Below, piece by piece: positions 3,602 through 25,999 of a DNA stretch of 26,918 nt. The translations under genes were made by a program, and so were the position numbers. Each line of letters starts with the position of its first letter. Positions within the stretch are counted from its first letter, which is position 1. The DNA is taken from positions 1 to 26,918 of IMG/VR virus record IMGVR_UViG_3300042868_004388; one strand, 5' to 3'. This DNA comes from a virus. Under the pieces are notes generated by a model. That model saw only the letters and a program-made list of their open reading frames with translations, was not told the DNA's origin and did no database searches.

Positions 3602-4852
3602 TTAGCCTTGCTTATTCGCATACCAGGTTTTCTTAACAGTCTGGCGGCTAAATCCTTTGTCAGTATCAATCAGCCACTCTCTGTTACCAATGAGTTCGCC
3701 CTGCGGTCCGCTTGGCTGACCGTCTAAAGCAGCAACTGCTGCTTGACCAATCCAATTAGCGGCCTGTACTGCAACGGCTTTGCCCCATGTTGCTCCCAGT
3801 GCGGAATACGTTTTTGCCTTAGAAAATTCCCAGTTGTCTGGAAGACCTTGAATGCGGGCGGCTTCTCTGTGTGTAATTCTTCGTTGAAGCGTTGGATGTA
3901 CGATGTGATCAAGCGCGCCGCCTGTCATCACGTGGCACCACGAGTCGCCGTTCCAGCGGCAAGGCATAGAAAATCCCATGTAAAAATCTTTAGCACGGAT
4001 CTTTTCTTCTTGACCAAGCCAGGCTTGTGGGAACCTATCGCCGTTGCGGTCAACAGCTTCACGAAGCGCTTTGTTGATCGGCATCATTGGCTTCCATCCG
4101 TCGTTGCCGAGGATGTCAAAGATTTCTTGAATTCTCTGGGAATCCAAGTTGTTCTTATTCATGTGGCCATCAACAACGCCGCTTGCGTTGCGCAAGTGTT
4201 TTACGTACTTGGATGGCTCCGAAACGTATCGCTGTGCGTCCCATGTGATCTCAAGATCAGCTAAGTCACCGATTACATCCATCATTGTTGGCATTTCAGC
4301 GGGAGCAATTGCTTGAGCGCCAAACGGCATTCCTTTTTCAACAGCAGTCCAGAAGTACCGCGCTCGGTACGAGAATCCACCGACCTGAAGGTTATTCATT
4401 TTTACATGATACAGGTCATACTCTTTGCCAGACAGTTCTTCAACCATGTCGCGGTACTTAACCATCGTGTCACGGCCTTGCGTGTACGCCTGCTGAACAC
4501 ACTCAAAGATGATCATTTTTGGTTTGATCCGTGCCGCGTACTTCATGAACGCGACTGTGTGCTCGTGTGCTTTTGCGTCGGCACCTCGGTTTGCTGGGCC
4601 TGACCATACGGACCAGCCCGAACACGGTGGACAACCCAGCACTACATCAGCTTTTACATCAGGCCATTCATTTGGGTCGTCAGAAAAGAATGAACTCCAA
4701 TTGTCTCCAAGATGGTGCCTGTTCAACTCTGCAACAGGGTTGCCAAAATTAAGCGTCCCTGTTCTGATATTCATTTCCATTCCAGAGTTTACAAACCCAA
4801 GACTCATGAAAGCTGCAAGTCCATTGCAGTCTGCGAATGTGTATTTTGCCAT
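3602..4852 (-). CDS. C5-cytosine DNA methyltransferase
   Basis: A 416-residue SAM-dependent DNA methyltransferase that should methylate cytosine at C5. Motif IV is VVLGCPPCSGWS with the catalytic Cys77; motif VI is IIFECV (E117, usually ENV); motif VIII is SYRARYFW (R163, R165); the C-terminal HPTLQRRITHREAARIQGLP matches motifs IX-X, which help shape the SAM pocket. Motif I (FADCNGLAAFMSLGF) departs from the usual FxGxG form. No restriction endonuclease gene is beside it, so it is an orphan enzyme: it could protect phage DNA or, as in phage TET clusters, make 5mC for further modification. No TET/JBP dioxygenase is visible in this window. Recognition site unknown. Confidence 0.85.
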   Translation of the reverse strand: MAKYTFADCNGLAAFMSLGFVNSGMEMNIRTGTLNFGNPVAELNRHHLGDNWSSFFSDDPNEWPDVKADVVLGCPPCSGWSVWSGPANRGADAKAHEHTVAFMKYAARIKPKMIIFECVQQAYTQGRDTMVKYRDMVEELSGKEYDLYHVKMNNLQVGGFSYRARYFWTAVEKGMPFGAQAIAPAEMPTMMDVIGDLADLEITWDAQRYVSEPSKYVKHLRNASGVVDGHMNKNNLDSQRIQEIFDILGNDGWKPMMPINKALREAVDRNGDRFPQAWLGQEEKIRAKDFYMGFSMPCRWNGDSWCHVMTGGALDHIVHPTLQRRITHREAARIQGLPDNWEFSKAKTYSALGATWGKAVAVQAANWIGQAAVAALDGQPSGPQGELIGNREWLIDTDKGFSRQTVKKTWYANKQG

Positions 4853-5628: not shown

Positions 5629-6105
5629 TTAAGCTCCCTTTGCGGGGCAAAGTGCGTCATTACAATTGCTTACGTCGTAGTCATCTAAGGCTCTATTGCA
5701 CCTTGTACATTTCATTCCATCGTCAAGTACTCGGTAGCCATTCTTTTGGCGGTCAGCATTTTTTTGCATTTTCTTAAGATATTCCATGTCGAGTTCTTCG
5801 TCAGTGGCCCCTGCTGCGCAAAGAATGTTCGCAACAAAGTGCAAGACATCAACGCACTCTTTGACAATCTCCTTGCGATCTGCGTACGGCTCATCGTGCT
5901 GCCACGGCTTCCAAGAAATGGCTTGACGAACTTCGGCAAGCTCATCGTCAATGGCGAGCATATTCCAACGGATGTACTCAATTAACTCATTGAGGTCGCT
6001 TGGCTCGTTACTGTGAAACTTGTCGTAGTTCGCGTTGTACACATCTGTTTGCAGCTTTGTGGTCATTTCAAGCCATCTATTGAATAATACTGACATGGTT
6101 GTCAA
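5629..6105 (-). CDS. All-alpha NTP pyrophosphatase (dUTPase/MazG-like) with C-terminal zinc knuckle
   Basis: Members of this superfamily hydrolyse dUTP, dCTP or other NTPs to the monophosphate and pyrophosphate using Mg. The paired acidic helices are visible: DDELAEVRQAISWKPW with E55/E58 (EXXE) and KEIVKECVDVLHFVANIL with E79, E83 and D86. The C-terminal part carries an extra metal site, C133-T-R-C136 ... C148-x4-C153. In hydroxymethylcytosine phages an unrelated dCTPase removes dCTP; this enzyme could do an analogous job here, but its base preference is unknown. TTG 6105 is taken as start because AAGGAA lies seven bases upstream; ATG 6096 is an alternative. It overlaps the upstream gene by 29 bases. 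Confidence 0.7.
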   Translation of the reverse strand: MTTMSVLFNRWLEMTTKLQTDVYNANYDKFHSNEPSDLNELIEYIRWNMLAIDDELAEVRQAISWKPWQHDEPYADRKEIVKECVDVLHFVANILCAAGATDEELDMEYLKKMQKNADRQKNGYRVLDDGMKCTRCNRALDDYDVSNCNDALCPAKGA

Positions 6106-7099
6106 TTCTCATTTCCTTGTGTAGTTGTGTAAGTGTTTCGTGTGGTGTTGGAATAGCTTCAGCATACTCTTCTCGCTGAGCCGCCGCGAGCTCGTACCTA
6201 TCAATTGAAGACATTTGTTCAATACCCGCGGCTAAATGACTCCACGAGCTACCTATTGTACCCGCCGTTCGCCATTCGGTAGCAACAGGCGTAAGTGTGT
6301 TCATAGCTTGAAAAAATCTAGGAGACCACCAAGTGATCTTATCGTCGTGCGGTCCAATTAGCAAACCGACGCTTTTAGATATAACTTCCATTGCTTCAGC
6401 ATCTCCGTCAGTCTTAACCTGCTTAGTTGCTATGCTTGGGAACATAAGATTTTCTGAGGTTTTTACTGCCCAAGAAGACCGCAAAGATTCAACAGCCCAC
6501 CGATTGCTACGCTCTTTTACTTTAGAAGAATTTTCTATATAAAAAGAATCAACGTTGATTCCAACAAATGAACTAGTGACGTTTTCTGGAAGTCCTGTAG
6601 CTGAAAAGTGTTTAGCGTTCCACGGAAGAGTTGGGTACAGCGTTGTTGGCCACTTCTCGTTTAGCAAGTAGTCGGCAGCGTCTACTATCTTCGGAAGATC
6701 TACCGCTATCTTAAAATCTTTTCTCTTTGAATAAAACTCTTTGAATAGTCGCGAACTGTAGTCCTTGCTTGCTGACCGAAGACTTGCGTGTACTTTAGAC
6801 GGCTCGGGAGCATCGATAAATAAGCAAAGTCTTTTGTCATTTTTCATCGTGTCAATCAGTGACAAGATGCCGTAAGACTTATTCGCTGTAAGACTTAAAA
6901 CTGGAGCAATTCCAAGCAGCACAGCGTCATATTCTGCAACACTGTCAATCGTCCACCCAACCTGCGGATCTTGCCAGACAACTTCAACTCCGCTGTACTC
7001 AAGAATTTTACAAATCGCACCCGCAAAAGAAATGTTCTTTTCGTTTAGCAATTTAGAAGACTGCGGTGCAGTCATTCCAGATATAAGTACTTTTGTCAT
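6077..7099 (-). CDS. Putative glycosyltransferase-like protein of the sugar cassette
   Basis: A 340-residue protein, probably with a GT-B-like two-domain layout. The N-terminus MTKVLISGMTAPQSSKLLNE looks like a first Rossmann strand and loop, followed by EYDAVLLGIAP (about 57-67). The C-terminal half contains VGLLIGPHDDKITWWSPRFFQAMNTLTPVATEW, similar in layout to the donor-side segment of GT-B enzymes (a strand, an acidic loop, then a helix and a strand with a change-of-status motif). No clean EX7E motif is seen, so this is a tentative assignment. It is the last gene of the nucleotidyltransferase/HAD/kinase cassette (abutting it at 7099), which supports a transferase role. A polysaccharide pyruvyl-transferase-like or unknown fold is also possible. 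Confidence 0.5.
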   Translation of the reverse strand: MTKVLISGMTAPQSSKLLNEKNISFAGAICKILEYSGVEVVWQDPQVGWTIDSVAEYDAVLLGIAPVLSLTANKSYGILSLIDTMKNDKRLCLFIDAPEPSKVHASLRSASKDYSSRLFKEFYSKRKDFKIAVDLPKIVDAADYLLNEKWPTTLYPTLPWNAKHFSATGLPENVTSSFVGINVDSFYIENSSKVKERSNRWAVESLRSSWAVKTSENLMFPSIATKQVKTDGDAEAMEVISKSVGLLIGPHDDKITWWSPRFFQAMNTLTPVATEWRTAGTIGSSWSHLAAGIEQMSSIDRYELAAAQREEYAEAIPTPHETLTQLHKEMRIDNHVSIIQ

Positions 7100-7839
7100 T
7101 AAACTACGCCACCTGACTCAGTGTACGCTGACGGAATTCCAACGTCAATTGCTTTTACATCAACAAGCGTCGTACGAGTGCTTAGTATTTGAGACAGATA
7201 CGGCCCAATCTTGAGCTCGCTTTGCTTCAATTCAGGACTAAAAGATTCAGCACTTTCCCATGCTTCTGAAAAAACTTGAAGTGCTCTACTTGTATTGAAT
7301 ATGACAGGCCCGCACCAGACTTTAACCATTGTAGATCCCTCCCAGGCGTCATCTAGTGACACGCTAGACCCTTCAACATAGTCGTATGATTCGTTACCGG
7401 TGCTGCGGATACGCGTGAATCTGTGCGCTTGCTGTATTGAAACAGTTCTTACGCCTATGGCGTTATCGCCAGTCATAGCGCTGTCTAGCGCCATTTTGAC
7501 AACAGTGTCTTGGTCCATAATGTTGTCGCTCATTAACAGCATAACTGTATCCGATTGGATACATTTAAGTGCAAGCAACGTGGCATGCCCGGGACCAAGC
7601 GGTTCTTCTTGAACTACAATTTGTACCCATTGAGAGTAGGCCGAAAGAACACTAGAAACTTCTTCTTTATTGTGCGGCGACACTACTACATGACACGCAG
7701 TGGCGCCAGATGCCGATGCGTACTCTACAGCGTATGCAAGTAGTGGGATCCCGTTTAGCTCTAGTAAAGGCTTAAAGAATGGCTTAGCAACTCCAGCCAT
7801 GCGTTGGCCTCGGCCTGCTGCAAGTACTACTGCTTCCAA
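7099..7839 (-). CDS. Sugar (or choline)-1-phosphate-type nucleotidyltransferase, RmlA/LicC-like
   Basis: An NTP_transferase-fold enzyme that should couple an NTP with a phosphorylated sugar or small alcohol to make an NDP-activated donor. The nucleotide-binding signature LAAGRGQRM follows the start directly, then KPLLELNGIPLLAYAVEYA and VMLLMSDNIMD, corresponding to the conserved acidic metal-binding strand (GDN in RmlA). It is about 246 residues, the usual length for a single catalytic domain without a hexapeptide repeat. TTG 7839 is chosen as start since AGGA lies seven bases upstream and the protein then begins at the conserved first strand (LEAVVLAAG); a longer frame to 7872 would run further into the HAD gene. 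Substrate unknown. Confidence 0.8.
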   Translation of the reverse strand: MEAVVLAAGRGQRMAGVAKPFFKPLLELNGIPLLAYAVEYASASGATACHVVVSPHNKEEVSSVLSAYSQWVQIVVQEEPLGPGHATLLALKCIQSDTVMLLMSDNIMDQDTVVKMALDSAMTGDNAIGVRTVSIQQAHRFTRIRSTGNESYDYVEGSSVSLDDAWEGSTMVKVWCGPVIFNTSRALQVFSEAWESAESFSPELKQSELKIGPYLSQILSTRTTLVDVKAIDVGIPSAYTESGGVV

Positions 7840-8357
7840 GGCCAGTCCTGCTTGGCCCAAATAAAATCCCAACCCGCTGCATGCGCAGGCGCTTGTCCTT
7901 CAATGCGATCGTCAATGTACACACCGCGACTTCCAAGCTTGCGGAAGACTGCTTCTCTTTCAGTAGTTGAAACTCCGTGGCCAACTAAGTTTTTGTGGTT
8001 GAGACCAAGTTCTGTAAGAATTGTGAGTGCCGTGTCATTGGCTGCGCCGGTGACGTAGTACACCAAGCACGCTGGGTCACGCTCCAACGCTCTAGCAATG
8101 TCAGCAAATGGAAGCTTGTGTTTTATCGCTGCGCCATTTTTTAGTGTTTCTACATATTTTTTAGTTTTTTCCGCATGAAGTTCTCTTGCTTTTTCCAGCG
8201 AACCTAAGGCGTTCGGCAACCATGTCTGCCACGGGTGACCCCAGGCTTGCACAGGCATTTCAACACCAACAGCAGCGTATGATTCGCGAACAAGTTCACG
8301 AGAATCAACAAGCACGCCGTCAATGTCAGAGCACCATATTGTCATCTGTTTTACCAT
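7827..8357 (-). CDS. HAD-superfamily phosphatase
   Basis: A 176-residue HAD hydrolase. Motif I is CSDIDGVLVDS with nucleophile D11 and acid D13; motif II is the threonine in CLVYYVTGAA; a downstream YIDDR is the acidic motif IV. Such enzymes dephosphorylate small metabolites. In this cassette it may remove a phosphate from a phosphorylated sugar intermediate, as GmhB does in heptose activation, before the nucleotidyltransferase step. It overlaps the kinase gene upstream by 7 bases and the nucleotidyltransferase downstream by 13 bases, so the three are probably co-translated. A polynucleotide 3' phosphatase or 5' nucleotidase cannot be excluded. Confidence 0.75.
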   Translation of the reverse strand: MVKQMTIWCSDIDGVLVDSRELVRESYAAVGVEMPVQAWGHPWQTWLPNALGSLEKARELHAEKTKKYVETLKNGAAIKHKLPFADIARALERDPACLVYYVTGAANDTALTILTELGLNHKNLVGHGVSTTEREAVFRKLGSRGVYIDDRIEGQAPAHAAGWDFIWAKQDWPWKQ

Positions 8358-9112
8358 CGTTCTATCGCTCTCTCTAGCACTGTAAGTACTCTTGGTAGTG
8401 AGTCAGGAATGTTTCTTAAAACGTAAGGCACAGCGCGCATCACGTGAACAACAGCCCATGCCTCACCTACAACAAATAGCCTATCATCATCAATAAGATC
8501 TTTTACGTCTGCTCTGCGGTACGCAATCACTCCGTTATTGTACTTAGCATCTTCCCAGCCGCATGCACTCTGCAGGATCTTTCCAATGTCAACTGCTGGT
8601 GAGTCGGGAACAGTTTCTGTCGCCCGAATTGGGTCAATGAATACTCTTCCGTACCCAGCACGGTTCATTACGTTTTCAGCCGTCGGGTCTCCATGTGAGA
8701 GACAGTGCTTCATTCTAAAAGCGCCATCGCCTGCTATTTTAGCAGAGTTAATTATTTCTTTCGTAGTTGCTTCATCAATATGCTCTGCTAAGTACTTGTC
8801 AATCGTGTGTTTCATTTTGGCTTCAAGTAGCTCTTGTGTGTTAGCTGTAGGCGGAACTACGGCTGGCTGAGTCCACACATGATTAGCAAGCGCGGGAACA
8901 ATAAATGACGGAGTACTTTCCCAGTACTCGACGTACTCAAGTTCTTCCATTGTGTACCCGTCGTCTGTGATTGAAAGCACCTGCGGAAATATGACTCCAC
9001 CATGCTGCATAATCCACTCGCCTTGTTCTCGAGTGCGCTCAACTATGCCACCAGACTTTTTTACTATTCCATTAGGAAGTATCTCGACAACAGCCCCTGA
9101 CAAACCCCTCAC
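8351..9112 (-). CDS. APH-fold small-molecule kinase
   Basis: A 253-residue aminoglycoside/choline phosphotransferase-fold kinase. The catalytic region LSHGDPTAENVM holds H140, D142 and N147, and FIDP (D160) is the second metal-binding acidic residue. The N-terminal glycine-containing loop LSGAVVEILPNGIVKKS (about 4-20) matches the ATP-binding strand of the family, with K18/K19 near the expected lysine. APH-fold kinases include choline kinases, methylthioribose kinase and N-acetylhexosamine 1-kinase, all able to feed a nucleotidyltransferase. It is in a tight operon with the HAD phosphatase and nucleotidyltransferase and overlaps the GT-B gene by four bases. Substrate unknown; aminoglycoside resistance is unlikely in this context. 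Confidence 0.75.
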   Translation of the reverse strand: MRGLSGAVVEILPNGIVKKSGGIVERTREQGEWIMQHGGVIFPQVLSITDDGYTMEELEYVEYWESTPSFIVPALANHVWTQPAVVPPTANTQELLEAKMKHTIDKYLAEHIDEATTKEIINSAKIAGDGAFRMKHCLSHGDPTAENVMNRAGYGRVFIDPIRATETVPDSPAVDIGKILQSACGWEDAKYNNGVIAYRRADVKDLIDDDRLFVVGEAWAVVHVMRAVPYVLRNIPDSLPRVLTVLERAIERW

Positions 9113-10356
9113 GAGAACGCGCTTTCAATCATAATTTCAGCGCTCTTGCGTGGATCATTTCGTGTACGCAAGACTTCTCTGTTGTGACGAGCAATTTCAA
9201 GTCTGTCGCTGTCAGAAATCTCTAGACACTTGACAAAAGCTGCAGTGACTTGGTCAATGATTTCTCGGCCTTCAGGCTTCACGAGCCTCCCTTGTGTTGG
9301 AGATCCCTTATACCAATCAAGCACCATCATACGAAACTGCGGGTCAGATAGATGCTGCGGAACAATACACATGGCGCCAGCATCGGCTGCTTCAAGCGTG
9401 GAGTACTCCACAAGTCCTCGAGCAAAGTTATACGCAGTCAAGTTCATATGAACCTTAAAGCGCGATGCGATTGCAGCAGAATCAGTGTAGTTGCCAAGAT
9501 AGCGAACTAAGGCTTTTCCTGGAATCCGTGCGTCCCAAGCGTACGGAGTAATTATGTTTCCATCCTTACGTCCATCTGGCCTATCCATATCTGCTTGCTT
9601 AGCATAGCGGATAACTTTAGCGCCAAAATTGTCGCGAAGTTGTTCATACGTAATGTACGTCGGTGAAGGACCTAGCCCTACTGAACACGATCCCCATATC
9701 TCAACCACAATGTCTTCTGGCAATTGTGCGCCTGCAAGAGCAATTAACGGCTGTCCTTTATTGTAGATAAATCTTCCAGATGTTCCTACAATGTTTTCCT
9801 GCGGAATTGGGTCATCAATCGCAAAGCTTGGAAGAAACGGCATACATCCTTTGATCCATTTCATTCCTTTGAATAGATCATTGCTATCCGTAGCTGAGTC
9901 GTCGCTCATTGTGACGAGCATGCTGCCTCTATTTTCAGCCTCGAGCAAACGTGGAACAAACGGAATTGTGCTCGCTGGGTAAAAAGATCCGTGTAATGAA
10001 GTTGTCCACCTAGCTTTTGTGCGAAGAAGCGCATCAACGTACTCAGGTATGACATCTTCGCCTGCTTTGATTGCCATTTTGTCGTGCAAAGGGACTTTGA
10101 TTTCTGGAAGAACAACCATGTCGTATTTATCTAGCAACTCGACAAGGTTAGCGCTCTTGACAACTACGTCTGGCGCTTCATTCCACCATCGGCCGCCTGG
10201 TTGAGGCTTTCCCCACGATGATCTGACTTTTCCACTCTTTGTAAAAGAAACTACGTCGCACTCGTGACCTAGTTCTCTAAATCCATATCTCATTCTGAAA
10301 GCCCAAGCCGTTGGGCCTTTTACTCCTGGCTCTGGTTCAAGTATCGCTACCCGCAT
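9109..10356 (-). CDS. GT-B glycosyltransferase
   Basis: A 415-residue GT4-like enzyme. The N-terminal domain begins MRVAILEPEPGVKGPTAWAF, a Rossmann strand followed by a glycine-rich loop. The donor domain has GTSGRFIYNKGQPLIALAGA (about 191-210), VVEIWGSCSVGLGPSP and, near 317-322, VEYSTLEAADAGAMCIVP, with E317 and E322 in the donor-sugar contact region; the usual EX7E spacing is shortened. AAGGAG five to six bases before the ATG at 10356 is the best ribosome site of the cassette, and the long hairpin region lies just upstream, so this is likely the first gene of the leftward sugar operon. Acceptor could be modified DNA, a virion protein or a host wall polymer. Confidence 0.75.
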   Translation of the reverse strand: MRVAILEPEPGVKGPTAWAFRMRYGFRELGHECDVVSFTKSGKVRSSWGKPQPGGRWWNEAPDVVVKSANLVELLDKYDMVVLPEIKVPLHDKMAIKAGEDVIPEYVDALLRTKARWTTSLHGSFYPASTIPFVPRLLEAENRGSMLVTMSDDSATDSNDLFKGMKWIKGCMPFLPSFAIDDPIPQENIVGTSGRFIYNKGQPLIALAGAQLPEDIVVEIWGSCSVGLGPSPTYITYEQLRDNFGAKVIRYAKQADMDRPDGRKDGNIITPYAWDARIPGKALVRYLGNYTDSAAIASRFKVHMNLTAYNFARGLVEYSTLEAADAGAMCIVPQHLSDPQFRMMVLDWYKGSPTQGRLVKPEGREIIDQVTAAFVKCLEISDSDRLEIARHNREVLRTRNDPRKSAEIMIESAFS

Positions 10357-10498: not shown

Positions 10499-11080
10499 TC
10501 AGAAAGGAGCGGCTGGCGGTGTGTTGATGTCTACTGGTGCTGCTGCTGGAGCCGGAGCTGCTGCAACTGGTGCCGGTGCAACTGCAGGAGCAGGCGCTGG
10601 GGCCGGTGCTGGAGCAGGAGCCGGTGCAGGGGCTGGAGCAGGAGCTGCCGCCGCTGCAATAACAGGTGCTGACGCAACTGCACTGTAGTATGACTTGATT
10701 TCATTCTTCTTTTGACCCTGCCAAGTGCGTGACCCAATTTGCGCACGGAATGTGCGTCCCTTGAGTGCTTGCTCAATTTGAGCGTTGGTTGGGCTTGTTG
10801 CGAAGAAATCGCGGTTAAGACCAAGCGCATTCATTTTGCGGAAAAAGATTCCAAGCGCAGTTGGGTTGTCGGTTGAGACAACCAAGTTGTCCCAGACGAG
10901 ACGCTTCATGTGGGCGCCTGTCTGAACCTGTGCTTTAACTGCGAACATTGTTTTTCCTGATTGCGTTGTCTTTGCGACGCCTTCTACGATTGCAAGATCG
11001 TAGTCACCGTCTGGAAGTGGATCATAGCTGCCGACATCGCCAGCTTCTTTAACTAGGTCTCCCCAATTGAGTGTACTCAT
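10499..11080 (-). CDS. Phage ssDNA-binding protein (DUF669-like) with Pro-Ala tail
   Basis: A 193-residue protein whose N-terminal 130 residues match the phage DUF669-type single-strand-binding proteins: MSTLNWGDLVKEAGDVGSYD, then LPDGDYDLAIVEGVAKTTQSG and KRLVWDNLVVSTDNPTALGIFFRKMNALGL, an OB-like beta pattern. It is immediately downstream of a Sak4-like ATPase, the usual pairing in phage recombination modules. Residues 141-183 are an Ala/Pro low-complexity tail, (PA)n, that takes the place of the acidic tail of typical SSBs; the protein ends PPAAPF, and a C-terminal Phe is typical of SSB tips. The start ATG has only a weak ribosome site. Binding activity is inferred from family and context. 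Confidence 0.75.
   Translation of the reverse strand: MSTLNWGDLVKEAGDVGSYDPLPDGDYDLAIVEGVAKTTQSGKTMFAVKAQVQTGAHMKRLVWDNLVVSTDNPTALGIFFRKMNALGLNRDFFATSPTNAQIEQALKGRTFRAQIGSRTWQGQKKNEIKSYYSAVASAPVIAAAAAPAPAPAPAPAPAPAPAPAPAVAPAPVAAAPAPAAAPVDINTPPAAPF
10532..10660 (-). repeat. (Pro-Ala)n coding repeat
   Basis: About 129 bases of near-tandem GCx/CCx codons encode residues 141-183 of the ssDNA-binding protein. The synonymous codons are varied, so the DNA is less repetitive than the protein. This suggests selection for a flexible Pro-Ala linker rather than recent slippage. Shadow frames through it are not genes. Confidence 0.85.
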
Positions 11081-14732: not shown

Positions 14733-15200
14733 CTATTGAAGTAGTCTAAGAGGTGTCCAACCGTTTTTTGCTAGGAATAGCAGACCGTGGCGTATGGCGT
14801 CTAAAGCGTGTCCTCCACCACCAACATGCCAGTACCCTAGTTTCTTTAACGCTTCATTTGGAAACATTCTTTTGGCATCTGACGGGTTTTGATACTTCAG
14901 ATCTATATCTTTCATTCCACAGTCGCGCATTATCTGCTTAAGAACTCCAATTTGTTCTAGAGAGTAGGGTGCCTGCGAGTTTCTCACTGTTTGAGCGTTT
15001 ATTGTAAACCGCTCGCATACTATTTCTATATTGCAGTTGCCTGCTGCGTACTCAGCAATGGCCTGTCTAAGAGGCTGCGCGTATTCCTCTGGCTGATACT
15101 CGCCTGACCACAGCAGTACTGGCTCTTCTCCTTGCGCAATGCTAAATGCGCACATTCCACTTGCCTTCCCTGGGTCTACAGCTATTACTACTCTTTTCAT
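14733..15200 (-). CDS. RuvC-like Holliday junction resolvase
   Basis: A 155-residue RNase H-fold endonuclease. The start strand VVIAVDPGKASG carries the first catalytic acid (D9); IVCERF holds E63; and the C-terminal GGGGHALDAIRHG provides H131 and D134, the usual RuvC order D-E-H/D-D. It is near the family's usual length (about 155-175). It should cleave branched replication or recombination intermediates before packaging. Its ATG overlaps the polymerase stop (TGATG) and it precedes the SNF2 helicase, consistent with one replication-recombination operon. Among RuvC-fold proteins a transposase is excluded by size. Confidence 0.8.
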   Translation of the reverse strand: MKRVVIAVDPGKASGMCAFSIAQGEEPVLLWSGEYQPEEYAQPLRQAIAEYAAGNCNIEIVCERFTINAQTVRNSQAPYSLEQIGVLKQIMRDCGMKDIDLKYQNPSDAKRMFPNEALKKLGYWHVGGGGHALDAIRHGLLFLAKNGWTPLRLLQ

Positions 15201-17023
15201 CAGTACTTATCCCCCCAATTTTCAAGTGGACCGTCAACGTCTGCTGTTAAAGGAACAGCCCAGCCTTCGGTTGTTGTCATGCATTCTTTTACAATACGTT
15301 TGATTTCTTCAGCATCTTTGCGTGGTGCATTGAGCACTATTTCGTCGTGAACAGGAACGATAAGCAGCTCTGTAAGATCCGCTTGATCCAACTTAATGAG
15401 GTTGCTCTTGAACACCTCTGCTGCTCCACCTTGAATTAGGTAGTTGACTAAGGTGTATACGCGGTTATCGTCGCATGGAAGTCTACGCCCAGTCCATGTG
15501 TACACGTAGCCTTGGCCTTCAGCTCTAGTCCTCCGCATACCGACATCTTCAATTTGTTTTTGGAAATGCGACATGCCGGGGAACCTGCTATCAAAAGCGT
15601 CTGAAGTATGCTTCATCTGCGCCTCGTGCACTCCAGCAGTTAGCGCCTGCTTTGCGACGCCTGCTCCATATAGTCGCCCGTACACCATGCTCTTAATAAG
15701 CCCACGTCGTTTGTCTGACTTCTGCATTTCAGGATCTGCGTAAACCTCACGACCGATTTCAGTAAAAGGATCTGATCCAGTGGCGTCTGCCAGATGGAAA
15801 AGATTAACTAAGTTCTCATCTTGAGACAGACTTGCAAACATTCTAAACTCAACCTGGTCAAGGTCGCTTGTGACAATCACATGGTCATCATCTTTTGGAA
15901 TAAACGCGCTACGGACTACATTGTCGCCTTTTGGAAGAGTCTGTAGGGCAGGACTCGTAATAGACATACGACTTGTCCTAGCACCAAGTGTTCTAACAGA
16001 TGGATGAACGAAGCCGTTGACGTTGTCAGTAATGAAATTAGAAAAATAAGTATTGGCCAGTTTGTCGGCTTTTCGTTGCTTCAAGCACGTGTCGGCTAAA
16101 TTGGTTATTTCTGGCGTAGTGTCAATCATCAGCATTCTGAGCTGATCTTTAGTGCAAGACTTCTGGCCAGTAGGAGTGTACTCACTAATTTCTGCGCCAA
16201 GACTCTCAAACAAACGAACTAACTGCTGGTTGCTTGTAATTGACACTCCACCATATTGCTGCTTAGCCCAGACTTTGACCGAGTCTGCGTACGCTGTCAG
16301 CTCTTCGTATTTCTTCTTTGAGTAGTCTAAGTCAATTCGTGCGCCGTTTAGTTCCATGCGTGTGACAATTCGTCGTGTCTGCATTTCAAGTTCATACGGT
16401 TTTGAGTACGCAGCACCAGGGCCGCACTTTTCGTAAAACTGTTCCCAGAGACGAGTAGTCAATACGCAGTCAAGCGCGCCATACGACCAATATGGTTGGA
16501 AGTTAATAGGCACAGTTCCCCATGTCCAACCATTCTTTGCTAGTTCAGTGTCTAGCGTGTCCTGAAGAGCAACTGCACGGCTATCAATGTGCAATGCTGC
16601 AAGACGCTTGAGAGCGCCAGATCCAAGTGGGTCAATAATATGAGCCATAATCATCGTGTCATGCGCACGGTGCCAAGGTAGTTCCCAACGAGACTGAACA
16701 GCAAACCATCGCGCTTCAAACGCAATGTTGTGGCAGATGATAGGACCGTCAAACTTATCCATGCCTTCGTAGAAGACACCTTTCCATTCGTCCCACGGAA
16801 TAGACCAACCTTGCTCACCGTCGCCAACCTGGACTAAACGAAGACGACCATGCCATGGAGAAAATGCGTGGTCCCGAGGATTGCCTGGAAGCTCGCCAGT
16901 TTCAGTGTCAACGGCAAGCGCGTTGTGCGGACGCCGCTGGCTCAACCACTCAAGAAACTGAGTAGCTTTTTCGGCCGAGTCTACTAAGTGTAGTTGTACG
17001 TTTGATAAGTCTGTTGTTGTCAT
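15200..17023 (-). CDS. polA: Family A DNA polymerase with 3'-5' exonuclease domain
   Basis: The replicative polymerase: 607 residues without a 5'-3' exonuclease domain. The N-terminal proofreading domain shows ExoI AVDTETG (D39, E41), ExoII HNIAFEARWF (usually FD, here FE) and ExoIII YGALD (D185). The polymerase domain has motif A SDLDQVEFRMFA (D387, Q390, E392, R394), motif B RGLIKSMVYGRLYG (K444, Y448) and motif C VPVHDEIV (H559, D560, E561). Tyr448 aligns with E. coli Phe762, the residue whose identity correlates with phage life style; Tyr is common in virulent phages. It is close to T7-type size. The start overlaps the dCMP deaminase stop by four bases (ATGA). Confidence 0.9.
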   Translation of the reverse strand: MTTTDLSNVQLHLVDSAEKATQFLEWLSQRRPHNALAVDTETGELPGNPRDHAFSPWHGRLRLVQVGDGEQGWSIPWDEWKGVFYEGMDKFDGPIICHNIAFEARWFAVQSRWELPWHRAHDTMIMAHIIDPLGSGALKRLAALHIDSRAVALQDTLDTELAKNGWTWGTVPINFQPYWSYGALDCVLTTRLWEQFYEKCGPGAAYSKPYELEMQTRRIVTRMELNGARIDLDYSKKKYEELTAYADSVKVWAKQQYGGVSITSNQQLVRLFESLGAEISEYTPTGQKSCTKDQLRMLMIDTTPEITNLADTCLKQRKADKLANTYFSNFITDNVNGFVHPSVRTLGARTSRMSITSPALQTLPKGDNVVRSAFIPKDDDHVIVTSDLDQVEFRMFASLSQDENLVNLFHLADATGSDPFTEIGREVYADPEMQKSDKRRGLIKSMVYGRLYGAGVAKQALTAGVHEAQMKHTSDAFDSRFPGMSHFQKQIEDVGMRRTRAEGQGYVYTWTGRRLPCDDNRVYTLVNYLIQGGAAEVFKSNLIKLDQADLTELLIVPVHDEIVLNAPRKDAEEIKRIVKECMTTTEGWAVPLTADVDGPLENWGDKY

Positions 17024-17493
17024 TTGTCCTCGATAGCTAATACTTCAATGCCGCACTTTATCAGGTAGTCAATAACGTCGTACGGACGCCGATGCATATC
17101 TGCCTGGCGAAGTCGGCATACAACTCGGTATATGCCAGAGTTAGAAATAAGTTTAGCGCATTGCGTGCACGGTGCGCTTGTTATGTATATAGTTCCAAAC
17201 TCACTTACAGAGCGGTCTACGTACAAAAGAGCGTTTGCTTCGGCGTGAATTGCTGGACAGCCGTCGTACATATTGTCTAGTGGAGTTTTGCCCTGAGCTC
17301 GTTCGCACCAGTTCATACAGTCACCAGCTTCTGGCCAAGTAGCCGCCGGCCCGTTGTATCCAGTTGACACAATGTGCTGATCGTGAGAAACAATGACAGC
17401 GCCCATCTGAGCGCGAGAGCATCTAGAGCGTTTGCTTATAGTTTCGGCTACAGCGAGCCATGTCTCGTCCCACGAAGGACGTGTGTCCGTCAC
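17020..17493 (-). CDS. Deoxycytidylate (dCMP) deaminase
   Basis: A 157-residue zinc cytidine/deoxycytidylate deaminase that converts dCMP to dUMP. The zinc and catalytic site is AIHAEANALL (H83, E85) with SAPCTQC (P108, C109, C112), and the substrate loop TGYNGPA is at 44-50. An extra CMNWCERA segment (C59, C63) is consistent with the second structural zinc seen in phage dCMP deaminases. GTG 17493 overlaps the stop of the preceding small gene (TAGTG). Together with the neighbouring thymidylate synthase-fold enzyme and dNMP kinase it forms a dNTP-pool module. dCMP versus tRNA-adenosine substrate is decided by context. Confidence 0.85.
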   Translation of the reverse strand: MTDTRPSWDETWLAVAETISKRSRCSRAQMGAVIVSHDQHIVSTGYNGPAATWPEAGDCMNWCERAQGKTPLDNMYDGCPAIHAEANALLYVDRSVSEFGTIYITSAPCTQCAKLISNSGIYRVVCRLRQADMHRRPYDVIDYLIKCGIEVLAIEDK

Positions 17494-17666
17494 TATTGGT
17501 CGTCCTGACTGTGTCTAATTGCGTCACTAACTGCGGATGTCATTATTTTAGAAACCAGCTCGAGAGCTTCTCGTCTAGAGAATCCTGCTTCTTTAAGTGT
17601 TTCATACAACTCATGCATGCTTACCGCAGCATCTTTCATCGGTGTTGAGTTGAACTTGTCGTCCAT
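17493..17666 (-). CDS. Small hypothetical helical protein (57 aa)
   Basis: An unrecognised 57-residue protein beginning MDDKFNSTPMKDAAVSMHEL. Residues 14-50 form one or two amphipathic helices (HELYETLKEAGFSRREALELVSK split by FSRREA), typical of a small helix-turn-helix or adaptor protein, with an acidic C-terminal end. The longer frame to 17720 would cover the end of the synthase gene; ATG 17666 is preferred because AAAGGAAAA precedes it and it lies two bases after the synthase stop. It is linked to dCMP deaminase by a one-base stop/start overlap. Function unknown. Confidence 0.6.
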   Translation of the reverse strand: MDDKFNSTPMKDAAVSMHELYETLKEAGFSRREALELVSKIMTSAVSDAIRHSQDDQ

Positions 17667-17668
17667 AT

Positions 17669-18523
17669 TTATTTTCCTTTGTTCTTGTCTATTGCTTTGA
17701 TCATTGCGTCTGCGTACCACCGCTCGGCTGGTGATAAACGTTCAAGTGTGTCTGGGTGCGTAGTTGCGTACAACGCTAAAGATGCAGAAGCTTCGACTTC
17801 ACGCCACGATCTTCCTGTTATTTCTGGCGGTACTTCAACATTGCTTGTTTTTCTAAGAGCGTCCGCTGCTTCATAGTTGTTTTCGTAAATGTGAAGAGAA
17901 CCGACGTGGTGGGCATAGGCACCTGGCTCAATACCAAGAACGGAGCACATAGCCAATTGCACTCGTGTGAATTGAAAGAAATCGTATGCGGCGCCAAGCC
18001 ACACGTCATTTGATCGCATATATACGCTCATGTTAAGCTTGTTATTGCGGATACGGAACTGATGCAAAATTGTGCAAGGGTAGTCGCGCTTCTTTTCAAG
18101 CATGTCACGCTCAGGATTCCAAATAGTGACTACTGCTTGTCTCGTATCTGGGTCTTTGCGTAGTCTTTCAATCATCACATCGTATTGACCTTTTGTTCTT
18201 GTTCCGTACGAGCCGTGAAATAGCCCGTCGTCCTCCGTGTAATTGGCAAACTGCGGACCAATGTCAATCACCAATTGCGGAATGCTTAGCCCTGACATCA
18301 ATTGGCATGCTTCAACAGCACCGATACCTGGAACAGTGCCTCGGTTTACACCTAAAGGAAGCGCGGCTCTGACGTCTGAAATATAAATAGTAGCATCTTC
18401 TATTTCTCTAGTATTCATTCCTCTAGGCGCGACATGCTCGCCGTGCTTTAACACGTGTTGAACAAGATCAACGTAGCCGTTTACGCCGTCTTCAATCTCA
18501 ATCGTTTTTACCTTTACATCCAT
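17669..18523 (-). CDS. Thymidylate synthase-fold enzyme, probable dCMP-specific (hydroxy)methylase
   Basis: A 284-residue thymidylate synthase homologue. The phosphate/active-site elements are present: FHGSYGTR (103-109), TRQAVVTIW, catalytic DYPCTILHQF (C150), RSNDVWLGAAYD (170-181) and GSLHIYENN (H211, Y213). The residue that binds the base, Asn177 in E. coli TS, 31 residues after the catalytic Cys, is Asp181 here, also exactly 31 after C150. In T4 dCMP hydroxymethylase this position is Asp179, and Asn-to-Asp is the known uracil-to-cytosine switch. The enzyme therefore likely acts on dCMP, giving 5-hydroxymethyl- or 5-methyl-dCMP. AAAGGA lies about 10 bases before ATG 18523. Methylase versus hydroxymethylase cannot be told from sequence; a true dUMP enzyme would need Asn here. 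Confidence 0.8.
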   Translation of the reverse strand: MDVKVKTIEIEDGVNGYVDLVQHVLKHGEHVAPRGMNTREIEDATIYISDVRAALPLGVNRGTVPGIGAVEACQLMSGLSIPQLVIDIGPQFANYTEDDGLFHGSYGTRTKGQYDVMIERLRKDPDTRQAVVTIWNPERDMLEKKRDYPCTILHQFRIRNNKLNMSVYMRSNDVWLGAAYDFFQFTRVQLAMCSVLGIEPGAYAHHVGSLHIYENNYEAADALRKTSNVEVPPEITGRSWREVEASASLALYATTHPDTLERLSPAERWYADAMIKAIDKNKGK

Positions 18524-18528
18524 TATTG

Positions 18529-19350
18529 CTATATCCTTTCAATCTCGGGATTGCCAAGAATTGTGATAAGGCTGGTTAGCCTTCCAACAGACATATTGTT
18601 CTGATTGACTACACCAGCGCTTCGCCACACAGTATCTGGCAATGACTCAATAAGCGCTTCTTCTGAGCTTCCTTCTGCTGGGAAGCATGGAAGAATGCTG
18701 CCATTAGTGTCCCAGCTACCGATGTAAAGAATTTTAGGGTTTGGAGACCCGATGTACTCGCCAAATTGCGCTAACTTTTTGGCCTCATCGTGTACTTCTT
18801 CTGCGCGGTGTATGACATATTGAGCAAGCAAGTCAATGGAGGCAACGCTGTCAGCGCGAGGAGTCAGTTTGCCAGCAAGACTGAAAACTTCCTGAGAAGT
18901 CTGTTCATATAGATCTACGATTTTCTCGAGTTCATCTAGTTTTACAAAATCATCTCCACGAATAGCCACCCTAGTTTTGATTACATCTAAAGGTTGATAA
19001 AGCCAGAATTGCGCAATACCCCGTGACGCCATAAACCACTCTGTCCAGCGCCAACCAGCTACGCCAAGAAGACCGAAGGCGTCTTTACACGTGTGAGGCC
19101 GCTTTACCGGTGCGTATGTTGCTTCGCCCCAATGCCATCTGTCCGCTACAGCGACGGCCTCAAACCAGTTAATGTTTTCAATCGACATTACCCAATCGTT
19201 AAGAACCCACCTGCGAGACTCTTCTTCTGGGCGCCCTTTGTGGAAACGCGTGATATGAAAGTCGGGGTATCTGTCCGCTAACTGGCGGGAAACCTCGTCT
19301 GTAAGAGAGCTTTTGCCAGAGCCGTCTGAGCCTTCTATAACTATGAACAT
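18529..19350 (-). CDS. Thymidylate/dNMP kinase-like protein with C-terminal extension
   Basis: A 273-residue P-loop deoxynucleoside-monophosphate kinase. IEGSDGSGKSSL gives Walker A (G7-S15), and ADRWHWGEATY (D70, R71) corresponds to the DRY/DRW substrate motif of thymidylate kinases; the lid is represented by RGDDFVKLDELEK. Residues about 200-273 form a separate extension with ILYIGSWDTNGSILPCFP and a GSSEEALIESLP segment, whose spacing reminds me of the degenerate uracil-DNA glycosylase-like tails on some phage dNMP kinases, but without a visible catalytic motif. It precedes the synthase by five bases, so it is likely the kinase that returns the modified dNMP to the triphosphate pool. Confidence 0.75.
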   Translation of the reverse strand: MFIVIEGSDGSGKSSLTDEVSRQLADRYPDFHITRFHKGRPEEESRRWVLNDWVMSIENINWFEAVAVADRWHWGEATYAPVKRPHTCKDAFGLLGVAGWRWTEWFMASRGIAQFWLYQPLDVIKTRVAIRGDDFVKLDELEKIVDLYEQTSQEVFSLAGKLTPRADSVASIDLLAQYVIHRAEEVHDEAKKLAQFGEYIGSPNPKILYIGSWDTNGSILPCFPAEGSSEEALIESLPDTVWRSAGVVNQNNMSVGRLTSLITILGNPEIERI

Positions 19351-24036: not shown

Positions 24037-25242
24037 TTAACCTATCCAGCCAGAGCGATAGTATACAGACAATGATGCTGTGCTATTTGCGTTACCCTCA
24101 TCTGTAAATTGTAAAACGTTAGCGCCTGGGTCCAAGCGTATCCAGTCAACAAGAGTGTCAACCATTGAACGGTTGCCAGCTACTATTCCGTTAAGAGCCA
24201 CCTCGTGATCGTACGTATCTACTTCTAGAACGTCTGTATCGCGGACCACTGTTCCGCTCGTGGTTGATGTGTTTGCAACGTTTGTAGCGGTCTTAGCATA
24301 CGTAAAGGTTGTTGTCGTCGGAACACTCAATACTTCGTGCTCGCCATTGAATGTGCTATCTATCCCAGCTACAGTAACAATGTCGCCAGCAGATAAGCCG
24401 TGAGTTGTTGAAGTAGTAAGTGTCGCGACGTTGCTTGTAAGCGATCTAAACGTAGTTGCCTTGCTTACACCAGCACGAAGGCTATCAGCAATAATAAGCA
24501 ACTCATCAGTAGTTTGATTGTAAATAGTAGCCGGGCCAGTAATTGGCCCTGTAACTTCAAAGACTGCCGATACCGCAGTGTTGCCGACATTAGTAATTGT
24601 AGTAGTACCTGTTCTGGCGGGCGATGCGCTTTTGCACAAGACAGTAGTCAGCGAGTATCCTTCTTCATTTGCATCAATCCATTCGTACTTGATTGGGTCA
24701 GCAGCTCGCAAGCCTATTGAGAATTCAGTACGCCCACGCGGATTAACCGTAGTAATGTCTGGCCGTCCGCTAAGACGAACGTATGAAGCACGTGGTGGAT
24801 CTTCGTTCACAACTAGCCATGCGCCAGTGTGTACAAGGCTTGTTGCTGAAATTAGTGTATTACGAGCAGCAGCAACACTGTCACCGTCTGGTGTAAGAAA
24901 AACACCTGAAAGCGTCAGTTGCCTAGCTTGCCATCGGCCTTTAACATCGTAAGAACCATCTCCCCAACCACGAGCAATGTCAGGAACTTCTGGGTCTGGA
25001 TGCACCCACCAGCCTTCAATGTCAGTGCATACCCACACTACGTTGTTGGCATCAATTGTATTTAGCACCAGAGTACCAAGCTTGACATCTGCCTGTAGCT
25101 TTAGCCCGGTAAATAGTGGCGCTGGAACTACTCTTAGCGTGTTGTCTACAGCGGTGGTTTCTACTCCTAGCGATGCAGCCTCAAGGTACTCACCAGTGCC
25201 GTATGTTGAGGTGCCGTAGTACGGAGTTGCTAAAGTAGGCAT
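24037..25242 (-). CDS. Distal tail protein (Dit-like)
   Basis: A 401-residue siphovirus tail protein. Residues 30-190 hold the N-terminal Dit core (LKLQADVKLGTLVLNTIDA, WWVHPDPEVPDIARGWGDG, GRWQARQLTLSGVFLTPDGD, FSIGLRAADPIKYEW), which forms the hexameric ring at the tail end. Residues 200-260 start the C-terminal beta sandwich (TTTITNVGNTAVSAVFEVTG), interrupted at about 264-335 by the VATLTT...HGLSAG...TTTTFTY module. The ending LDPGANVLQFTDEGNANST and SVYYRSGW is the usual Dit C-terminal strand set. It lies directly upstream of the tail-tip protein, the usual order. Ribosome site weak; coupling to a small ORF upstream is possible. Confidence 0.75.
   Translation of the reverse strand: MPTLATPYYGTSTYGTGEYLEAASLGVETTAVDNTLRVVPAPLFTGLKLQADVKLGTLVLNTIDANNVVWVCTDIEGWWVHPDPEVPDIARGWGDGSYDVKGRWQARQLTLSGVFLTPDGDSVAAARNTLISATSLVHTGAWLVVNEDPPRASYVRLSGRPDITTVNPRGRTEFSIGLRAADPIKYEWIDANEEGYSLTTVLCKSASPARTGTTTITNVGNTAVSAVFEVTGPITGPATIYNQTTDELLIIADSLRAGVSKATTFRSLTSNVATLTTSTTHGLSAGDIVTVAGIDSTFNGEHEVLSVPTTTTFTYAKTATNVANTSTTSGTVVRDTDVLEVDTYDHEVALNGIVAGNRSMVDTLVDWIRLDPGANVLQFTDEGNANSTASLSVYYRSGWIG
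24238..24453 (-). repeat. VATLTT-HG module in the distal tail protein
   Basis: Residues about 264-335 (SNVATLTTSTTHGLSAGD, VTVAGIDSTFNGEHEV, TTTTFTYAKT) have the same pattern as the two modules inserted in the neighbouring tail-tip gene, an inserted domain shared between two adjacent tail genes. Confidence 0.7.
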
Positions 25243-25325
25243 AGTCTAGCTTTCTTTACGTAGACCATAGCAAAATAGATAGCACACTGTGAAGTACCGC
25301 TATCGTATTGCTTTAAAATTGTCAT
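25230..25325 (-). CDS. Possible very small ORF (31 aa) between tail genes
   Basis: A 31-residue frame starting MTILKQYDSGTSQCAIYFAM sits between the Fn3 gene (ends 25349) and the distal tail gene (starts 25242), overlapping the latter by 13 bases. AAGGA lies nine bases before its ATG, a better ribosome site than that of the distal tail gene, so it may be a short leader that couples translation. The residues have no recognisable fold. It may equally be non-coding; the 106-base gap 25243-25348 holds nothing else I can name. Confidence 0.3.
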   Translation of the reverse strand: MTILKQYDSGTSQCAIYFAMVYVKKARLCLL

Positions 25326-25348
25326 TGTTTAGTATCCTTGCTGCTTCA

Positions 25349-25999
25349 TTAGTAGTCGGCGGTAACTCGGATATTGCTGTTGCCAATGAAAGTCTCACCA
25401 GCAATAGTAAATGTTGGTCTTAGCCAATAATAGATGGAATTGGTAGGAAAGGTTATTGATGCAGAAACCCTAGTGCTTGAAAATCCGCTTGAAAAAGAAG
25501 ATGGTGTTGCGGCAAAAGATGTGACAGATGCAAAATTTTCTGTCGTGCTTCGCTGAATAGTAGGACTTGATACAGTAACACCCGAATTTTGAGGGGTTAT
25601 ATCAACATAAAAAATTGTAGGGTTGTCATAAACAATGAACCCATCCATGCTGAATGGGTTGGTTGCCTGAGGTTTACTGTATTGCGTAAACGATACTCCT
25701 GCTGAAGAATCCCCTACCCCATTAGCATTAACAGCCCTTAAATAAAGAGTGTAAGCAGTATTTTCACCTAAACCAGTAATACTTACTGGACTTGTTGTAT
25801 CAACAGGACTTAGCGCAGTAAAAGTTGAGTTGTTAAACGAGTATTGGTAGTTCGTGATAGCAGAACCACCGTCACTTGAAGGTGCAGTAAAAGAAATCGT
25901 AGCAACATTGACTCCAGGAGCAGCACTTAATGAAGTTGGAGCAGTTGGTACAGTCCTGCCTTTCGTGCTTCCAATTAGACCACCTAGTACGCCAGCCAT
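25349..25999 (-). CDS. Fn3-domain virion protein
   Basis: A protein with a fibronectin type III domain at about residues 15-105: VPTAPTSLSAAPGVNVATIS, SSDGGSAITNYQYS, ITGLGENTAYTLYLRAVNANG, the canonical Fn3 strand order ending in the L..N..G turn. It is a common surface-exposed decoration of tail or capsid proteins and may aid weak binding to cell surfaces. The second half (FVYDNPTIFYVDITPQ..., residues 120-215) is another beta domain. ATG 25999 overlaps the preceding stop in a TAATG pattern seen elsewhere here; the longer frame from 26029 would add ten residues. It is immediately upstream of the distal tail protein. Confidence 0.7.
   Translation of the reverse strand: MAGVLGGLIGSTKGRTVPTAPTSLSAAPGVNVATISFTAPSSDGGSAITNYQYSFNNSTFTALSPVDTTSPVSITGLGENTAYTLYLRAVNANGVGDSSAGVSFTQYSKPQATNPFSMDGFIVYDNPTIFYVDITPQNSGVTVSSPTIQRSTTENFASVTSFAATPSSFSSGFSSTRVSASITFPTNSIYYWLRPTFTIAGETFIGNSNIRVTADY

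Follow-up and report, generated by a model that had tools for sequence, protein, structure and literature searches.

Gene content of the window

The window, by which we mean the entire 26,918-nucleotide stretch of viral DNA analysed here, carries a thymidylate synthase (TS)-family gene together with the minus-strand genes and residues summarized in Table 1. The coordinates that an earlier note on this DNA had given for the TS-family gene were right, and the strand, which that note left unstated, proved to be minus; in frame 1 of the plus strand the same interval (17669-18523) contains several stops. Thymidylat_synt was the sole Pfam match of the encoded protein (E=1.3e-25), and this match, together with the minus-strand ORF, rules out a chance or wrong-frame origin. 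Eight NCBIfam thymidylate-synthase models matched as well, all of them under cut-off (the top one, thy_syn_methano, at 83 bits vs 174.55). When the sequence was searched against solved structures, the top match was the CMP 5-hydroxymethylase MilA (1e-19), and a profile of 19 lineage sequences scored MilA at 110 bits, the best TS at 87 and T4 dCMP hydroxymethylase (dCH) at 63. When ten window proteins were run through PADLOC, the models matched were of methyltransferases and, in one case, a deaminase, besides two weak kinase matches.

Table 1. Genes and active-site codons of the window. The tblastn counts refer to 83 loci (80 from IMG/VR plus L001-L003), which end at a contig end or flank, where misses are not absences.
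Feature	Coordinates	Strand	Remarks
C5-cytosine DNA methyltransferase	3602..4852	minus	PC and E-x-V motifs kept
All-alpha dUTPase/dCTPase family protein (PF08761)	5629..6105	minus	T4 gp56 dCTPase matches PF08761 too
Glycosyltransferase-like protein	6077..7099	minus	Predicted fold closest to T4 beta-glucosyltransferase (BGT), SenB tied
Nucleotidyltransferase, sugar-1-phosphate type	7099..7872	minus	
HAD-type hydrolase, candidate sugar phosphatase	7827..8357	minus	Weak, sub-cut-off match
APH-like phosphotransferase, candidate sugar kinase	8351..9112	minus	Pfam APH E=3.1e-4, just below cut-off
GT-B/GT4-like glycosyltransferase	9109..10356	minus	T4 alpha-glucosyltransferase (AGT) among top fold matches
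DNA polymerase I-like polymerase	15200..17023	minus	Named after annotated DSL-LC01 homologue; tblastn 82/83 loci
dCMP deaminase	17020..17493	minus	Pfam 7.6e-20; PHROG 174 1.5e-41; tblastn 82/83 loci
Small ORF between hydroxymethylase and deaminase	17493..17720	minus	75 aa; tblastn 70/83 loci
Predicted TS-family pyrimidine hydroxymethylase with dCMP-type active site	17669..18523	minus	284 aa
Asp181 codon	17981..17983	minus	E. coli TS Asn177, T4 gp42 Asp179; cytosine recognition
Ser171 codon	18011..18013	minus	E. coli Ser167, MilA Ala176; deoxyribose preference
Catalytic Cys150 codon	18074..18076	minus	Aligns with E. coli ThyA Cys146
Asp147 codon	18083..18085	minus	T4 Asp145, E. coli Leu143; hydroxymethylation signature, Cys-3
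Arg128 codon	18140..18142	minus	E. coli Arg126, MilA Lys133; phosphate binding and deoxyribose preference
Thymidylate-kinase-like P-loop protein, candidate hm-dCMP kinase	18529..19350	minus	PHROG 761 E=3.3e-14; Pfam, NCBIfam sub-cut-off; tblastn 80/83 loci

Active-site residues of the TS-family protein

Several determinants of substrate and product have been published for this family. Asp145 of T4 dCH was described as the water-activating residue, the D145N mutant giving no 5hm-dCMP, and Asp179 as the cytosine determinant (PMC6400193). Ser94 is a proposed part of the hydroxymethylation signature. The ribose preference of MilA was attributed to Ala176 and Lys133 (PMC5175136). In the MetaGPA study, positions 177 and 147 were the best separators of modified from unmodified contigs, modified contigs carried Asp at 177, and TS, dCMP deaminase and PRA-PH domains were found together on them (PMC8670742).

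We aligned the best 80 of 114 confirmed IMG/VR loci, relatives at 65-100% identity that amount to 59 distinct proteins, and added 18 other rows, made up of 16 references, a MilA fragment and the window protein itself. Cys150 and Asp181, which the earlier note had singled out as lying 31 residues apart, are both present in the translation, the latter within VWLGAAYD, and they align with ThyA Cys146/Asn177 and with the corresponding Cys and Asp of T4 gp42. Leu143, His147 and Asn177 of ThyA are replaced by Asp, Thr and Asp in the window protein and in 80/80 relatives (best 80 of 114), and T4 gp42 and MilA carry the same Asp/Thr/Asp set. Likewise, Asp147, Cys150, Thr151, Ser171, Arg128 and Asp181 (window numbering) were invariant in 80/80 relatives (59 distinct proteins among the best 80 of 114), a collection that leans to Asp in that one of the six search peptides, AAYDFFQF, includes the switch Asp. 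Both Asp positions, 147 and 181, are coded by GAC as well as GAT across the relatives.

The reference rows fell into other sets at positions 143/147/177 (E. coli numbering): Leu/His/Asn in E. coli ThyA, phiNIT1 TS and PHB12 TS, Leu/Met/Asn in Miami TS and the T5-like phage TS, and Asp/Asn/Asn in SPO1L1, KN2-1 and Montesquieu, which were taken as dUMP type. Four rows lay outside any class, namely RB69p048 (Glu/Thr/Asp), L122 (Asn/Thr/Asp), Candle (Asp/Thr/Asn) and Shrew (Arg/Thr/Asp). L122, a Propionibacteriaceae MAG homologue, combines Asn at Cys-3 with Asp at 177; going by T4 D145N, it may not hydroxymethylate and is a candidate dCMP methylase. The active-site set is broken in the TS-family proteins of the Mycobacterium phage Candle (L093; Arg at 58) and the Curtobacterium phage Shrew (L134; Gln at 94, Arg at 143), and to judge from these residues both are possibly inactive or repurposed. 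Homologues on the Micromonosporaceae contigs L118, L119 and L120 are of the dCMP-type, not the CMP-type.

The window protein has the catalytic Cys, the Asp at Cys-3 (Asp or Glu in the type) and the Asp at E. coli position 177 by which dCMP-type hydroxymethylases are recognized. It lacks the Leu143/His147/Asn177 set of the five true TS compared (Met at 147 in Miami and the T5-like phage), has Asp181 in place of the Asn177 of SPO1-type dUMP hydroxymethylases, and carries Ser171 and Arg128 rather than the Ala and Lys found at the ribose site of the CMP hydroxymethylases MilA and BcmA. Since Ser171/Arg128 stand where MilA has Ala176/Lys133, dCMP would be preferred to CMP, and a ribonucleotide substrate appears to be ruled out by these two residues. 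Thr151, as in dCMP-type enzymes, supports dCMP as the substrate, and Asp147, the published hydroxymethylation signature at Cys-3, favours hydroxymethyl over methyl. The earlier reading of dCMP rather than dUMP is thus reinforced by the added residues and by the tree described below; of the two products it had allowed, 5-hydroxymethyl- and 5-methyl-dCMP, Asp147 favours the former and disfavours the latter.

T4 Ser94, two residues before Tyr96, corresponds to Gly104 of the window protein (Gly104-Ser105-Tyr106), whereas the T4 gp42 subgroup is defined by Ser/Thr two before the active-site Tyr; a Gly at this place also occurs in PW916, MW202510 and phage G. At position 61, the window lineage, L117 and the Gordonia phages have Gln, most other rows have Trp, and Miami and the T5-like phage have Ala and Gly, respectively. 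By its sequence, the window protein would work like gp42, yet it is placed outside the T4 gp42 subgroup.

Relatives and phylogeny

Additional homologues came from a pattern search of genome contigs, which gave 20 stretches, half of them (10) confirmed, with 7 of the confirmed ones used in trees; both search patterns contain Asp, in the second the switch Asp itself, and the resulting loci lean to Asp. Two trees were built from chosen rows: one of 39 rows, including 14 of the 80 IMG/VR relatives, with all columns, and one of 38 rows, including 6 of the 80, without the specificity columns 143, 147 and 177. The 38-row tree separated the five true TS from the 33 other rows (100/100), the latter including the window protein as well as four rows with Asn177 (SPO1L1, KN2-1, Montesquieu and Candle); four changes were needed at position 177 over this tree. 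With the specificity columns out, the protein therefore falls on the hydroxymethylase side, and membership in a true-TS clade that happens to have Asp, a possibility named in the earlier note, is ruled out.

Within this tree, six IMG/VR rows and DSL-LC01 were the nearest neighbours of the window protein (100/99); Phendrix/GMA2 joined next (87/76), followed by an Acidimicrobiales MAG protein (95/80), and the all-column 39-row tree gave it the same neighbours. RB69p048 and Shrew adjoin this group (96/93) on long branches; many branches are long, and the placements of T4 gp42, RB69p048 and Shrew are unsure. Identity to the window protein by tblastn was 68% for DSL-LC01, 37% for Phendrix and 35% for GMA2 over the matched stretches. 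The window may be labelled an actinophage by way of these relatives (DSL-LC01 and the Gordonia phages).

Trp175 and Ala178-Ala179 had been suggested as signs of a distinct branch. The lineage is indeed distinct, but Trp175 does not define it, as VWLG also occurs in PW916, MW202510 and L118. Ala178 and Ala179 are near-constant in the lineage (78/80 and 80/80, respectively, among the best 80 of 114), although the usual Leu-Pro is absent elsewhere too, in T4 gp42, MilA and the Gordonia phages.

Conservation of the neighbourhood

The window matches the 116,822-base record G002 over its full length, at 99.99% in one part of 14,168 bases and at 99.66% in another of 12,750. Whole-record searches covered 16 long records chosen from among the 83 loci (13 from IMG/VR and 3 phage genomes), of which G001/G002 and G005/G010 look near-duplicate. 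A single PF00303 gene, a PF08761 gene and profile matches to the 6077-7099 glycosyltransferase (GT) were each found in 16/16 records, and a C5-methyltransferase in 14/16. Going downstream from the TS-family gene, and on its strand, one meets first the GT, then the PF08761 gene and, in 14/16, the C5-methyltransferase; the distance is 9-14 kb in the IMG/VR records and DSL-LC01, and 20-29 kb in the two Gordonia phages. The GMA2 methylase gene shares four bases with the dUTPase gene, the GT-like genes come next, and a Pfam Glycos_transf_1 gene, above cut-off, lies between the two GT-profile matches of this phage. In Phendrix, the methyltransferase gene is separated by one short ORF from the MazG-like gene, and two glycosyltransferases are annotated next. 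Aligned over 136 columns, the window PF08761 protein and T4 gp56 are 27% identical (pairwise E=2e-12).

ThyX was found in 2/16 long records, some of which are fragments. One of the two is G002, indicating that dTMP need not come from the TS-family gene there. A TET-type route, in which 5mC is oxidised to hmC, was rejected as the 16 records held no Tet_JBP match above cut-off, in a search that had no positive control (14 control genomes were equally blank). Tet_JBP matches below cut-off were present in G009 and G011 of the 16 records searched. In G009, the record of L017, four such matches lie inside 7 kb at 50688-57449.

Glycosyltransferases and the sugar cassette

Neither Pfam nor PHROGs assigned a family to the 6077-7099 or 9109-10356 protein, and the sequence of the former gave no useful match to solved structures. 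For the 6077-7099 model (pLDDT 90.6), VIA-align ranked T4 BGT at the top (Z 17.4, rmsd 3.9, 296 aligned), with SenB at Z 16.7, tied within 1 Z unit, and AGT at 14.9. Foldseek matches to this model were weak (best E 3.7e-5, a macrolide GT; AGT 3.4e-4), and T4 BGT was not in the 50 Foldseek matches listed. For the 9109-10356 model (pLDDT 73.1), T4 AGT held ranks 2-4 in Foldseek (E about 2e-9), while TarM (Z 21.7) and PimA (21.2) led AGT (20.4) in VIA-align. SenB, PimA, TarM and BshA score as well as AGT/BGT or nearly so. The two models thus resemble T4 AGT and BGT in fold, a resemblance that is not exclusive and that makes DNA activity a candidate function only. Outside the minus-strand module, the window also has a plus-strand glycosyltransferase at 878-1936 (PHROG 3408, 1.5e-83).

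In the window, the 9109-10356 GT is followed by the APH-like, HAD-like and nucleotidyltransferase genes and then by the 6077-7099 GT. Among the 63 loci with a homologue of the gene at 10499-11080, 33 have two complete GT-like ORFs (400-446 and 337-347 aa) beyond it and 12 have a GT of the 9109-10356 type, many others being cut short. DSL-LC01 and L050 have a UDP-galactopyranose mutase beyond this homologue. In DSL-LC01 (L001), a tryptophan halogenase and a UDP-galactopyranose mutase are annotated at 32222-33793 and 24324-25421, the mutase lying between two GT-like genes. For GMA2, protection from restriction has been mentioned as a possible role of its methylase and glycosyltransferase genes (PMC4524720); for DSL-LC01, both the methyltransferase and the mutase are named in the paper on that phage (PMC10611076). 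The window adds a set of candidate DNA glycosyltransferases with exchangeable sugar-supply genes.

A conserved C5-methyltransferase

The PC and E-x-V motifs of the C5-methyltransferase were kept in 11/11 aligned sequences (the window and 10 loci, two of them window near-duplicates). The window protein has an unusual N-terminal motif, DCNGLAAFMSLGF, where the usual motif I would stand. A C5 that is already hydroxymethylated cannot be methylated. Conservation of this enzyme therefore implies either that cytosine replacement is partial or that the enzyme has another role; it is hard to square with hydroxymethylated cytosine and argues against complete replacement or for that other role.

One possible arrangement, which we put forward tentatively and think more likely wrong than right, is a fixed core of hydroxymethylase, dCTPase and GT in which the sugar is varied by cassette swap, with a dedicated C5-methyltransferase acting on the same DNA, where it would mark residual cytosines or edit 5-hydroxymethylcytosine, in a lineage with lake-water, wastewater and soil relatives. 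The swappable cassettes would be the kinase/HAD/nucleotidyltransferase set, the UDP-galactopyranose mutase, or just two GT-like genes. If true, it would be new in bringing together two C5 chemistries in one phage genome and lineage-specific sugars. The gene set also poses the question of which purpose a C5-methyltransferase serves where the phage is expected to carry hydroxymethylcytosine.

Proposed pathway and alternative explanations

We conclude that the TS-family gene encodes a dCMP hydroxymethylase, with a probability of roughly 0.8. The enzyme type is known, and this is a further member of it in an uncultured phage lineage. From the family, residues, gene order and fold resemblance computed above, we infer each enzymatic step of the following pathway as well as the modified DNA. 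The PF08761 pyrophosphatase would convert dCTP to dCMP, and the dCMP deaminase would shunt dCMP to dUMP. With methylene-tetrahydrofolate, dCMP would receive a one-carbon unit at C5 as Cys150 attacks C6 and Asp181 binds and protonates the cytosine N3, and water activated by Asp147 would complete 5-hydroxymethyl-dCMP. The adjoining thymidylate-kinase-like protein would take hm-dCMP the first step toward hm-dCTP, which the phage DNA polymerase I-like polymerase would insert. Two phage glycosyltransferases would then add sugar to hmC in DNA, the APH/HAD/nucleotidyltransferase cassette being the source of the activated sugar. Virion DNA probably contains modified cytosine, a prediction strengthened by the dCTPase-family and glycosyltransferase-like genes, and we lean toward glycosylated hmC as its form.

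An alternative with the same enzyme step is that hm-dCMP is made but the glycosyltransferases target the host surface or virion proteins, leaving plain or partial hmC in the DNA. GT-B folds are generic, a shared fold being no proof of DNA activity, and the PHROG to which the 878-1936 glycosyltransferase belongs is classed under 'moron, auxiliary metabolic gene and host takeover'. Against this, the GT-like and PF08761 genes lie on the same strand, with match centres 0.7-0.9 kb apart in 15/16 records and 2.9 kb in Phendrix. We consider this alternative unlikely, albeit the most serious of those weighed here.

The main rival product, absent from the options of the earlier note, is 5-hydroxy-dCMP, made by a synthase of the RB69 (Mosigvirus) type that places OH directly on C5, the sugar cassette then supplying a sugar for that OH. 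RB69-type phages combine a TS-superfamily 5-hodCMP synthase with a sugar kinase/NTP-transferase/arabinosyltransferase cluster (PMC13390438), and Thanatos has an O-linked deoxypentose on cytosine with a comparable gene set (PMC12838424). The corresponding window genes are similar to those of RB69 only weakly (NTP-transferase vs ORF053, pairwise E=0.018; APH-type gene vs ORF052, 21% identity, pairwise E=3e-4). RB69p048 and Shrew join the window lineage in one tree, on the long branches noted above, and the 19-sequence lineage profile scored two 234-238-aa chains named thymidylate synthase at 74 bits, above T4 dCH. However, at E. coli TS positions 143, 169, 173 and 209 the window protein differs from RB69p048, the one RB69-type sequence compared: its Asp at Cys-3, its Asp173, Gly177 and Tyr213 stand against Glu, Asn, Val and Phe, and T4 gp42 and MilA match the window protein at all four positions. 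On balance, we take an RB69-type synthase to be improbable.

A dCMP methylase yielding 5-methyl-dCMP, as named for phage Xp12 (PMC5175136), is less probable still. The change of Asn to Asp alone can turn TS to dCMP and yield 5-methyl-dCMP, according to work cited in PMC8670742, but the window protein has Asp147, the reported hydroxymethylation signature, at Cys-3 where five true TS have Leu, and the tree places it on the hydroxymethylase side. Finally, a phage dTMP synthase of relaxed specificity with an incidental Asp is hardly credible: the gene is annotated thymidylate synthase in DSL-LC01, Phendrix and GMA2, no second PF00303 member occurs in any of the 16 long records, and ThyX was found in just 2 of these, but ThyA Leu143, His147 and Asn177 are all replaced in 80/80 relatives (best 80 of 114), the near-identical record G002 encodes ThyX, and the tree keeps the window protein off the true-TS side.

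Taken together, hydroxymethylation of dCMP as proposed here predicts modified, probably glycosylated, cytosine in uncultured phages (114 related IMG/VR loci) and in cultured Gordonia phages. In the literature searched by title and abstract start, with subscription journals mostly outside, the matches listed held no enzyme assay or nucleoside analysis for the lineage, including the Gordonia phages and DSL-LC01. The cultured Gordonia relatives, in which the gene is annotated thymidylate synthase only, make the prediction directly testable.

Comparison with known systems

The window protein shares with T4 gp42 the Cys, the Asp at the 177-equivalent and at Cys-3, the Thr after the Cys and the Ser/Arg deoxyribose set, and the window, like T4, has a PF08761 pyrophosphatase (the gp56 family) and one AGT-like and one BGT-like predicted fold. 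Unlike T4 gp42, which it matched over residues 112-234 only (29%, E=2e-7), it has Gly for Ser94 and Gln for Trp after the catalytic Glu, and the window neighbourhood differs from that of T4 in its DNA polymerase I-like polymerase, sugar cassette and C5-methyltransferase. MilA (PDB 5b6d; 5jnh is the same molecule) is the best structure match by both sequence and profile and has the same base-recognition residues, but differs in having Ala176/Lys133 for Ser171/Arg128. The TS on modified contigs in the MetaGPA study likewise have Asp at 177 and are linked with an NTP-pyrophosphohydrolase domain as well as a dCMP deaminase. The modification validated there was carbamoylation of hmC (PMC8670742), whereas a carbamoyltransferase was found in 0/11 Pfam-scanned window proteins.

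Like RB69 and Thanatos, the window combines a TS-family enzyme with sugar kinase, NTP-transferase and GT genes, but in those phages the sugar is on the C5 hydroxyl, not on a hydroxymethyl (PMC13390438, PMC12838424). The window further departs from RB69 at the four active-site positions, in the HAD-like gene of its cassette and in the weak sequence similarity. With DSL-LC01 (an Actinomycetia phage from a lake metagenome assembly), Phendrix and GMA2 it shares the homologous TS-family gene, flanking replication genes, GT-like genes, PF08761 and the C5-methyltransferase, although in DSL-LC01 a UDP-galactopyranose mutase fills the slot of the window kinase/HAD/nucleotidyltransferase genes.
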